From positions 1 to 64,000 of the forward strand of contig JAFWIP010000009.1 in NCBI GenBank assembly GCA_017514805.1: a stretch of DNA of 64,000 nt. The letters are read 5' to 3'. Position numbers and translations under genes: made by a program. Under the pieces are notes generated by a model. The model was not told the DNA's origin. It was given only the letters and a program-made list of their open reading frames with translations, and did not search any database. Shown one piece after another: positions 59,425 through 62,805 of this stretch. This stretch comes from Candidatus Saccharimonadota bacterium (lineage in GTDB: Bacteria; Patescibacteriota; Saccharimonadia; Saccharimonadales; Saccharimonadaceae). The stretch's first letter is position 1. Each line of letters starts with the position of its first letter.

Positions 59425-60642
59425 ATGACCAAGATTATGTTAGTCGAGGACGACAAGTCCTTGCGAGAGATTTACAGCATTAGGCTGGTCGCTGAAGGTT
59501 ACGATATTGTTTCCGCCGGCGATGGTGAGGAGGCACTCGCACTCGCCGTTCAAGAAAAGCCAGAACTAATCGTTTCGGATGTAATGATGCCGAAAATTTC
59601 TGGTTTTGACATGCTAGATATTTTGCGTTCGACGCCAGAGACTAGCAATATCAAGGTAATCATGATGACCGCTCTCTCGAGCGACGATCAGCGCATGCGC
59701 GGCGAGAGTCTTGGCGCAGACCGCTATCTCGTCAAATCCCAGGTTGGCATCGAAGATGTTATTAATACCGTTCATGAAGTTCTCGGCGACAAGCCAACCG
59801 CAAATGCGGCAACAAATCTCGATGTCGCTGCCTCGGCAACTCCAGCACCAGCTGCTGCGCCAGCTCCAGCACCAGCACCGGCACCGGCGCCAGCGCCAGT
59901 AGCTACACCAGCTCCAGCTCCTGCACCAATTCCGCAGCCAGTAGCGCCAGCTCCAGCACCAGCACCGACTCCAGCACCAGCACCGGCTCCAATTCCTCAG
60001 CCAATCATTCCTAATGCTCCAGAACCGGCCGCAGCACCTCAACCAATTATTCCAAACGCTCCAGCTCCAGCTCCGCAGCCAGCAGCGCCACAAGCGCCAC
60101 AGGCTCCAAACGCAAATTTTAATCCAGCTCCTGCCGCACAGCCGGCTGCAGTGCCAGCTCCTGTCGCACCGCAGGCCGCAGGAGTTCCTGCAGCACCTAG
60201 TACTCCGGCGCCAATCGCTGCCGCGCCGGCACCACAAGGCCCAACACCAGTTACGCCCAGCGGCGAACAAGGTGGCGAGCGCGTAATTCAACCGCTCCAC
60301 GACACGAATACTGAACAGCAGCGCGAAGAAATGGAGCGCAAGATGGATGAACTACTCGGCAATGTTCCAACTGAGCAGAGTCGCCCAACGCAAGAGCAAG
60401 AGGAAGAAGCATTCTCCGAAGAAGAGCCGGATCCAGATTCAATTCAGCCTGGATATGCACAGAACCTTGCAAATGCGCTTAGCCATGACATGCAGCAAGA
60501 TGGACAAGTCGCACCAGATTCAATGGCGGCACGCATGAGTGAAGATCTAAAAGATGATCCGCTAACTCAGCAAGCACAGGCAATGCCCGCAGCTGCGCCA
60601 GAGCAAGCTCCAGCACCAGCTGAACCAATGGAAAATGCTTAG
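59425..60642 (+). CDS. Response regulator with receiver domain and Pro/Ala-rich tail, no DNA-binding domain
   Basis: Residues 1-120 are a receiver: Asp9-Asp10, phospho-acceptor Asp52 in LIVSDVMMP, Thr in MMTALSS and Lys in YLVKSQ. Residues 130-280 are almost only Pro, Ala, Gln and Asn, with PAPAPAP runs and a twice-used IIPNAP unit. The last 120 residues are acidic and helical (EQQREEMERKMDELLG, NLANALSHDMQQDG). No output domain is recognised. It could work by protein contact, e.g. on the cell envelope or pili. A TGTTATAAA lies just upstream. The 3' end overlaps the pseudouridine synthase gene by 8 bp. Confidence 0.9.
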   Translation: MTKIMLVEDDKSLREIYSIRLVAEGYDIVSAGDGEEALALAVQEKPELIVSDVMMPKISGFDMLDILRSTPETSNIKVIMMTALSSDDQRMRGESLGADRYLVKSQVGIEDVINTVHEVLGDKPTANAATNLDVAASATPAPAAAPAPAPAPAPAPAPVATPAPAPAPIPQPVAPAPAPAPTPAPAPAPIPQPIIPNAPEPAAAPQPIIPNAPAPAPQPAAPQAPQAPNANFNPAPAAQPAAVPAPVAPQAAGVPAAPSTPAPIAAAPAPQGPTPVTPSGEQGGERVIQPLHDTNTEQQREEMERKMDELLGNVPTEQSRPTQEQEEEAFSEEEPDPDSIQPGYAQNLANALSHDMQQDGQVAPDSMAARMSEDLKDDPLTQQAQAMPAAAPEQAPAPAEPMENA

Positions 60643-61309
60643 ATTAAATAAATATATTGCAACGAATCTCGGAGTTTCTCGCCGAGAAGCCGATAATCTG
60701 ATATCTGCTGGCAAAGTCTTGGTCAATAATAAGCCAGCAGAAATCGGAGGACGCATATCCGAAAAGGATACTATTATTGTTGATGGCAAAAAAATTGTTC
60801 CCGATAAACTAATTTATATCGCGCTCAATAAACCCGTCAATTATGTCTGCAGTCGTAAACGTCAGGGTGAGACGCCGACGATTTATGAATTGCTGCCAGA
60901 AAAATATCAGGCATTAAAAAGCGTCGGACGCCTCGATAAAGATTCTTCTGGTTTGATTTTACTGACAAATGACGGCGATTTTACTTTTCGTATGACACAT
61001 CCGAGCTTCGTGAAGACAAAGATTTATGAAGTGCGCCTTGATCGCGCGCTTGAACCGCTCCATCAGCAAATGATTGCCGATTTTGGTGTACAGTTGCCTG
61101 ATGGGCCGAGCAAACTCGGCCTTGAGAAGCTTGATGATAATCGAACGTTTTGGCGTATTACGATGAGCGAGGGTCGCAATCGCCAGATTCGCCGCACCTT
61201 CGATGCGCTGGGTTATAAAGTTATTGCCCTACACCGTACGAATTTTGGGCGCTATAGCTTAGATGGTTTGGAAACCGGCAAATTCGTAGAAGTTCCGCGC
61301 GCTGATTAG
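60635..61309 (+). CDS. RsuA/RluB-family rRNA pseudouridine synthase
   Basis: 224 residues: S4 domain first (MLRLNKYIATNLGVSRREAD, AGKVLVNN), then the RsuA-type core with the catalytic Asp in VGRLDKDSSGLILLTNDG, and MSEGRNRQIRRTFDALGYKVIALHR. It modifies a uridine in 16S or 23S rRNA; the length and S4 fusion fit RluB/RsuA, and the exact target cannot be decided. The ATG lies inside the response regulator gene (8-bp overlap). Confidence 0.92.
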   Translation: MLRLNKYIATNLGVSRREADNLISAGKVLVNNKPAEIGGRISEKDTIIVDGKKIVPDKLIYIALNKPVNYVCSRKRQGETPTIYELLPEKYQALKSVGRLDKDSSGLILLTNDGDFTFRMTHPSFVKTKIYEVRLDRALEPLHQQMIADFGVQLPDGPSKLGLEKLDDNRTFWRITMSEGRNRQIRRTFDALGYKVIALHRTNFGRYSLDGLETGKFVEVPRAD

Positions 61310-61328
61310 TTTTTTTACGAACCGTTTG

Positions 61329-61499
61329 AACTTCCGAAGATTTTTTACGCCATACTCCCCTACTTCGCAACTTCCGAAGACATCACGAACTGACGAAGGT
61401 TCGGCGGCGAAGGCTATATATAGTGCTTTCGGAAGTTCGTTATGTTTTCGGAAGTTCAGAAGTACCTATGTGGCAACGAAAAATCTTTCGGAAGTTCGC
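61329..61499. repeat. Five-copy GAACTTCCGAA motif array in a convergent gap
   Basis: Two copies in one direction (61329-61339; 61369-61379, with C for the first G) and three reversed as TTCGGAAGTTC (61428-61438, 61447-61457, 61487-61497). Copies 1-2 and 4-5 are both exactly 40 bp apart; copies 3-4 are 19 bp apart. Located between the ends of two convergent genes, so it is not a promoter region. No other exact cluster was seen in the window. Confidence 0.85.
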
Positions 61500-61509
61500 A
61501 AAAAATATA

Positions 61510-62805
61510 CTAATTCTTTAGAAGTTTTGAGAGCTTTGCTTTAAGGCTGCCATTTTCTGGTACGCCAACAAGCGTATCCATGCCAACACGTAGCAGGCCC
61601 ATAGCGGTTACAAAAGTATGATCAAGTTCGCGGTCGGTGACATTCTCAATCCCCTCAATCATGTCAGGCTCAATAATACTAACAATTGGCCGACGAGCGA
61701 ACGGAAGGTCCTGATACCAATCGCCAGTCGCGAGTAGCTCCGGGATCTCTGATAAGCCAGCGCCGCCGCCACATAGCAGAATCTGGCCCGGAAGAGTCTC
61801 AAGCTGATCAAATTCCTCAATAGCGAGCTCAACGCCGGATTGCCAAACCTCGAGATTGCGCTCAATCGCGGCTTCATATTTTTTATGAATTTCAGGCTTC
61901 ATTTTTGGCGAATCGGCAAGGAGTTTCAACTTCTCGGCATCTTCAAAACTTAAACCAAGGCGCTGTGCGACTTGATGCGTGAAGCTACGGCCACCGAGTG
62001 AAAACATCTTCGTACCCTCGACGCCACCGTCATCAACAATCGCGATGTCTGTAGTACCACCACCGATATCCATTACGATACCAGAGAAATTCGACTCAAC
62101 ATCATCGCCGAGACAAGCACGACAAACTGCAAAAGGCTCAACCGCAACCGTCACAAGATCAAGTTCTAACTCATCGCAAACACGCTCGATTGCTGAGATA
62201 TGTACGAGCGGCGCAAAAGCCGTATAGATTTGAACAACGACTTCTTTGCCCTTAAAGCCAATCGGGTTGGAAACCTTATAGCCATCAATGCGGAGTGAAA
62301 CGAGCGCAGAATTAATCAGACGAACTTCAACGTCCTTATTGTTAGTCTCAAGTGCAACCTCGCGACGAGCGCGCTCGCCAGCCTTTTGCTGAACCTGTTT
62401 AATAATATGCTCCATTTCAGCATCAGTAATTGGCTTGCTTGCGTCGGCGCGGCGATATTTAATCGAAGCCGTATTCCCCTTAATGAGTTCACCGGCAATG
62501 CCAATGACAACTTCTTGGGCGCGAACGCCAGCCATCTCTTCAGCCTTACTCAGTGCCTCTTCGCAAGTCTGAACAACCCCTTCAATATCCGCAATCGCGC
62601 CAGAATACATATTCGTTGGCGCCTCGTGAGCTTTGCCAACACCAACAACTTTGAGCATAGTTTTGCTCTTTTTCGCAATCAATGCCTTTACGTACTCGGT
62701 GCCAATATCTAGCGCTAGTAAATAATTATCTGGATTTTTCTGTTTGCCAGTCGGTGCGCCAGTAGCTTTGGCGGCAATCTCTTTGCCGCGAGAAATAATG
62801 CTCAT
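61510..62805 (-). CDS. ftsA: Cell division protein FtsA
   Basis: Actin-like ATPase that tethers FtsZ to the membrane. It starts with a short linker and ALDIGTEYVKALIAK (phosphate 1), has the SHS2-like 1C region (EVVIGIAGELIKGNTA), phosphate 2 in MDIGGGTTDIAIVDDG, adenosine motif LCGGGAGLSEIPELL, and a C-terminal LKAKLSKLLKN amphipathic helix for membrane binding. 431 aa is normal. TGTTATAAT ends exactly 6 nt before the ATG. ftsZ is not next to it on this side. Confidence 0.95.
   Translation of the reverse strand: MSIISRGKEIAAKATGAPTGKQKNPDNYLLALDIGTEYVKALIAKKSKTMLKVVGVGKAHEAPTNMYSGAIADIEGVVQTCEEALSKAEEMAGVRAQEVVIGIAGELIKGNTASIKYRRADASKPITDAEMEHIIKQVQQKAGERARREVALETNNKDVEVRLINSALVSLRIDGYKVSNPIGFKGKEVVVQIYTAFAPLVHISAIERVCDELELDLVTVAVEPFAVCRACLGDDVESNFSGIVMDIGGGTTDIAIVDDGGVEGTKMFSLGGRSFTHQVAQRLGLSFEDAEKLKLLADSPKMKPEIHKKYEAAIERNLEVWQSGVELAIEEFDQLETLPGQILLCGGGAGLSEIPELLATGDWYQDLPFARRPIVSIIEPDMIEGIENVTDRELDHTFVTAMGLLRVGMDTLVGVPENGSLKAKLSKLLKN

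Follow-up and report, generated by a model that had tools for sequence, protein, structure and literature searches.

Between two converging genes, the window (the whole stretch of 64,000 nucleotides analysed here) carries an array of a short repeated motif, and the question is what such an array is and how it came to lie there. The exact 11-mer TTCGGAAGTTC occurs at 61428, 61447 and 61487 on the forward strand and at 61328 on the reverse strand, and at 61368 on the reverse strand there is a fifth, which has one mismatch; all lie within 170 bp. By chance, 0.05 exact copies would be expected in the window, where there are four, a number that 0 of 100 shuffles attained. The array described in an earlier note on this DNA is real, and chance does not explain it. 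The coordinates in that note hold, with the strand counts swapped: three motifs are forward and two are reverse. Both 40-bp spacings that it described (61328 to 61368 and 61447 to 61487) were confirmed, and a further spacing of 19 bp separates 61428 from 61447. It had also named the gene context correctly, as an RsuA/RluF-type pseudouridine synthase gene and an FtsA/PilM-type gene (below, rsuA-like and ftsA-like) converge at the array. We consider that the array is probably the inner architecture of a MITE-like mobile element, whose inverted ends are built of phased sites and which was inserted at a TA. The parts of this element and its two neighbours are listed below in window coordinates.

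60635–61309, + strand: RsuA/RluF-type pseudouridine synthase, left neighbour, C-terminus unaltered by the insertion
61307–61308, no strand: left TA target duplication, the first two bases of the rsuA-like stop, seen against the uninterrupted GATTAATTC of congeners
61309–61510, + strand: whole insertion, 202 bp, with ends G...C, absent in congeners; its removal restores the empty site
61328–61397, + strand: left arm, well-conserved end type, spacings 40 and 19
61328–61338, − strand: motif, exact TTCGGAAGTTC
61368–61378, − strand: motif, one mismatch
61387–61397, − strand: degenerate third left-arm motif, two mismatches, position set by the family alignment
61398–61427, no strand: loop separating the arms, 30 bp, where the copy on contig C11 has a 113-aa ORF
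61428–61497, − strand: right arm, diverged end type, three exact motifs, spacings 19 and 40
61428–61438, + strand: motif, exact
61447–61457, + strand: motif, exact
61487–61497, + strand: motif, exact
61510–62805, − strand: FtsA/PilM-type actin-like protein, right neighbour, C-terminus unaltered by the insertion
61511–61512, no strand: right TA target duplication, the first two bases (− strand) of the ftsA-like stop, from the congener comparison
End sequences for matching to the ends of a transposase: GTTTTTTTACGAAC / GTATATTTTTTGCGAAC

The congeners show the same locus without the array. In most readable close congeners, the stops of the rsuA-like and ftsA-like genes overlap or abut (gap of −4 to −11, or 0), and in the remoter congeners the gap is mostly 21–85 bp long and lacks the element. 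The joined gene ends of the congeners read GATTAATTC or near variants, which the window splits into GATTA-[G...C]-TAATTC. When 61309–61510 and one TA were excised in silico, the result was GATTAATTCTTTAGAAG, identical to the site of congener G051, and the C-termini stayed unaltered (RAD* for the rsuA-like and LLKN* for the ftsA-like protein). Judged from this one clean empty site at one locus, the insertion went into the TTAA of the overlapping stops with a 2-bp TA duplication. Each gene regained a TAG stop because each element end begins with G. At the other copies, any TA duplications are masked by diverged flanks, so the duplication is read from the window insertion. With one genome compared per species, the presence of the element at the rsuA–ftsA gap varies between species. 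The 202-bp element has a GC content of 42%, compared with 45% in the window, and the sole ORF spanning it is a mechanical one of 72 aa.

The window copy, on contig C8, belongs to a family. The source genome (G000; 880,861 bp in 11 contigs, 98.9% complete), of which 828 kb (94%) were read directly, contains no fewer than four other copies, full or partial:

C9:52615–52809: copy in the nusG–rplK gap, between co-directional genes
C10:30588–30804: copy between the divergent pbp and leuS
C11:115843–115952 with 116401–116474: gene-bearing copy with two arms
C11:44154–44190: partial copy upstream of valS

All ten exact 11-mers in the 828 kb fell inside family copies, as did 17 of the 19 occurrences of the 10-mer AACTTCCGAA; the motif is clustered, a point on which the earlier note had made its claim depend. 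An ungapped inverted-repeat census of the same 828 kb returned six repeats, three of them from this family. Two further strong inverted repeats, at G000:C9:26910–26995 and C1:17885–18003, are unrelated to it, and pattern scans gave five apparently unrelated matches in the genome and none in viral contigs. A DNA uptake sequence, expected in hundreds of copies and also in coding sequence, was rejected on the ten exact copies, all in elements.

The copies occupy convergent, co-directional and divergent gaps. Since the window copy is missing from the same gap of the congeners, which is an empty site, and the gaps that hold the remaining copies include co-directional and divergent ones, the array is not a fixed chromosomal landmark. 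The earlier note had offered a chromosome-organising or partition site as one interpretation, and a repeated, palindrome-like site that clusters in a few places would suit a parS/KOPS/matS-like function. However, the copies are few and dispersed, the arm model has no match in 40 of 44 congeners, and the polymorphism is of the insertion type, which makes such a role highly improbable. Nothing spoke positively for it, and the conserved position, near the origin, expected of a parS site was contradicted by congeners that lack the array in the same gap. On parS, the earlier note had itself reported no match.

The neighbourhoods of the other copies also drew our attention. Among congeners, the nusG–rplK gap resembles an insertion hotspot, with differing inserted sequences or genes (L097–L107). 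At the position of the G000 element upstream of leuS, several congeners carry GC-rich, structured-looking inverted repeats of the GGCCGGACGAC type (L127, L130–L134), for which no Rfam match was found. The valS leader of the genus contains the conserved blocks CCCCTGTTA ... GCAGGGAA and ATATGTTCTAATAT, with the look of a regulatory leader (L156–L165).

The window element consists of two inverted arms, each laid out as motif, 40 bp, motif, 19 bp, motif. The arms align nearly gap-free across copies and species, and some (C9, C11) have an extra 40-bp unit. Averaged over the G000 arms, identity is 86% in the motif columns, compared with 63% for spacers between elements and 54–59% for spacers within an element. 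One end type is better conserved (left in C8, right in C9, right in C10 and left in C11), which suggests that the left end of the element is distinct from its right end. With motif and spacing kept while the spacers drift, the arms are best read as phased arrays of predicted protein-binding sites. Among the proposals of the earlier note, the protein-binding array thus fares best as a description of the arms, within a dispersed repeat of insertion type and not a fixed landmark. In the same gap of related genomes, which the note had proposed to compare, the array is absent and the site is empty; the 40/19 spacing is kept across species.

We also considered a functional structured RNA, or a processing or termination hairpin, transcribed from the gap, as the earlier note had hinted at a folded RNA. 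The predicted fold is indeed a single long hairpin and very stable on both strands (−82.3 kcal/mol, where shuffled sequences average −44.3, z −9.3; reverse strand −69.2, z −6.3). Nevertheless, spacers match no better within an element (0.54–0.59 identity) than they do between elements (0.63), so there is no special upkeep of the pairing. The two arms of an element resemble each other no more than arms taken from different elements; this disfavours a functional folded RNA, and the hairpin looks like a by-product of the inverted ends, not a selected RNA. Moreover, the gap has no Rfam match, no promoter was found in it, the hairpin lacks a terminator-type U tail, and the gene-bearing copies have ~450 bp in the loop. 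Covariation was likewise rejected as a sign of RNA: G-U counts differ between strands, by rough estimate within the effect of choosing the better strand, and within-element pairing is not elevated. Altogether, we regard an RNA function as very unlikely.

A guide RNA array of the TIGR or CRISPR-like type deserves almost no credence. TIGR arrays occur in Patescibacteria and have repeats of 8–12 nt (PMC12045711), but they run head-to-tail with ~9-nt spacers, mostly in 5–15 units, as dual repeats next to a Nop-domain gene (PMC12045711). The window array is inverted, with 3+3 sites, and its spacers are homologous between copies instead of unique. This layout contradicts a guide array; the earlier note had itself remarked that the array does not match CRISPR structure.

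The C11 arms flank an ORF (C11:116003–116344) for a 113-aa helix-turn-helix-like (HTH) protein. HTH matches were obtained only below threshold in Pfam and NCBIfam, a PHROGs search returned nothing significant, and none of the three collections recognised a catalytic domain in the protein. Its structure model was poor (pLDDT 54.7). The remoter relatives, assigned by reading sequences, are RhuM/Fic-type proteins from the same family of genomes; no relatives were found in viral contigs. In G051, the corresponding location holds this element too, and its ORF encodes a protein that is 66% identical. The two ORFs differ by 27, 21 and 59% at the three codon positions, a pattern that points to selection on the protein, and the third-position divergence is similar to that of the neighbouring genes (63 and 47%). 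In G012, a homologue 48% identical adjoins rplK and is flanked by arm-like sequence, so that a related HTH gene is found at arms in three genomes (G000, G051 and G012). The homologues in G051 (L187, 2509–2847, minus strand) and G012 (L309, G012:C211, 43–375, minus strand) each have one in-frame TGA, at different places, and the reading frame downstream is conserved in both. These codons may reflect either two recent losses or some TGA peculiarity of the HTH gene. In terms of the relation between the two forms, the short copies without a gene would most simply be internal-deletion derivatives of the HTH-bearing form.

The presence of this gene gives rise to the main rival of the MITE-like reading, in which the arms serve as operator arrays and the HTH protein, at the head of a small regulon, represses or activates itself and the genes beside the other copies (rplK, leuS, valS and others). 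The fixed 40/19 spacing, the better preservation of motifs than of spacers (0.86 vs 0.63 between G000 copies) and the arms or arm-like sequence around the HTH gene would all suit such a regulon. Promoter-like sequence follows several of the copies, and the motif core and the HTH sequence differ together between species. The siting of most copies upstream of promoters would equally agree with an operator array and counts against the MITE-like reading. The window copy, however, is located between convergent gene ends, where no promoter was found, and is a precise insertion; the places of the copies differ between species, and binding of the arms by the HTH protein is only putative. We thus judge a regulon unlikely and prefer the MITE-like element.

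A search of 45 congeneric genomes with the arm model gave strong matches only in G000, G051, G041 and G012, and a weak one in G060. Across these species the spacing is fixed while the motif core differs. The core is CC in 17 of 21 G000 motifs, AT in five of the six scored G051 motifs (and in the G051 C12 copy) and AT in all three G041 motifs; G012 has a third core, TGTATAAA. The rplK element of G012 reads GAACTGTATAAAGA - 40 - GAACCGTCTAAAGA - 19 - CAACTTG, spaced as elsewhere, and another G012 copy retains the CC core. The C11 insertion shared by G000 and G051 has every one of its six motifs switched together between the two, in flanking arm sequence that aligns. In the tree, G000 groups with G046/G056, and G051 with G012/G041. 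As the two genomes stand apart, either the C11 insertion is old and has disappeared on several occasions, or two insertions went into one and the same gap. Some copies may be old and immobile, to judge from insertions apparently common to different species. A further idea is that the RhuM-like HTH protein and its phased inverted arrays form a pair of reader and sites that moves as an element, with a species-private dialect rewritten at all copies at once, including shared insertions; we find this doubtful enough to mention only as a conjecture. Were the HTH protein itself to drive the movement or the correction of copies, elements would be mobilised in a new way that needs no classical transposase. 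The two-base core switch in all six sites beside a diverging HTH gene would be a compact natural case in which the specificity of a DNA-binding protein shifts along with its sites, and one that the 113-aa protein and a 70-bp DNA would suffice to test.

The insertion relative to congeners, the dispersed copies, the inverted arms, the fixed spacing and the longer copy with its HTH-like gene can be read directly from the sequence. The mechanism that we infer for the MITE-like element, from binding and end pairing to mobility and the identity of binder and mobilising enzyme, would be as follows. Two inverted ends of ~70 bp each hold three ~11-bp sites, at spacings of 40 and 19 bp, which correspond to about four and two turns of the helix. 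A trans-acting protein, perhaps the HTH protein, perhaps a transposase that targets TA and was not seen, or the two jointly, would bind the sites cooperatively, bring the two ends together and move the element into TA targets. The 202-bp copy entered the TA in the overlapping rsuA/ftsA stops, duplicated it and rebuilt a TAG for each gene; the short copies may have arisen by internal deletion from the gene-bearing element. Site and binder would change together, yielding the species-specific cores.

As published, bacterial MITEs are ~100–200 bp long and have TIR, TA ends, TSD and stable stem-loops (PMC2229807), and the size, stem-loop, TA ends and duplication of the window element fit this definition (PMC2229807, PMC3049150). 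The element is 202 bp long, with inverted ends in a long stem-loop, several dispersed copies and, at one locus, a TA duplication. MITEs have ends in common with an autonomous transposase element; here the ends are common with the HTH-gene element, and a PF13358 domain search of the source genome found no IS630-type DDE transposase. The low copy number also counts against the MITE-like reading, as do the insertions apparently common to different species. A 2024 review of MITEs does not mention Patescibacteria (PMC10969869), and our literature searches retrieved no description of a MITE from Saccharibacteria, Patescibacteria or the candidate phyla radiation. Therefore, if the genome, which by its size and gene content is putatively of the Patescibacteria type, belongs there, this family may be the first MITE family described in those groups.

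The closest known kind is thus the MITE of the Correia/RUP/ERIC type. Like the Correia/NEMIS, RUP and ERIC elements, the window family is ~200 bp long, with a long stem-loop, inverted ends and TA duplication, and is mostly intergenic, dispersed and devoid of its own transposase (PMC2229807, PMC3049150). It differs from them in its low copy number, three phased sites per end and species-specific core. Its longer relative has an HTH gene and not a recognisable transposase, and no IS630-type partner was found. Repeated binding sites inside inverted repeats and a TA target are known from Tc1/mariner-type transposons with the IR/DR layout, e.g., Sleeping Beauty. The window family shares the direct repeats within inverted repeats and the TA target, but has shorter arms and spacing and three sites per arm, and no DDE transposase was seen in the PF13358 search. 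REP units are short, high-copy hairpins, and RAYT is a Y1 transposase. Their arrangement is similar in that palindromic, dispersed intergenic repeats are tied to a protein gene flanked by them; here, copies are few and the protein is RhuM-like, with an HTH and no known nuclease domain, in place of a Y1 transposase. RhuM/Fic-type proteins with an N-terminal HTH are remote sequence relatives of the 113-aa protein, whereas in this family the protein is a stand-alone one of 111–113 aa, without C-terminal domains and flanked by arms.
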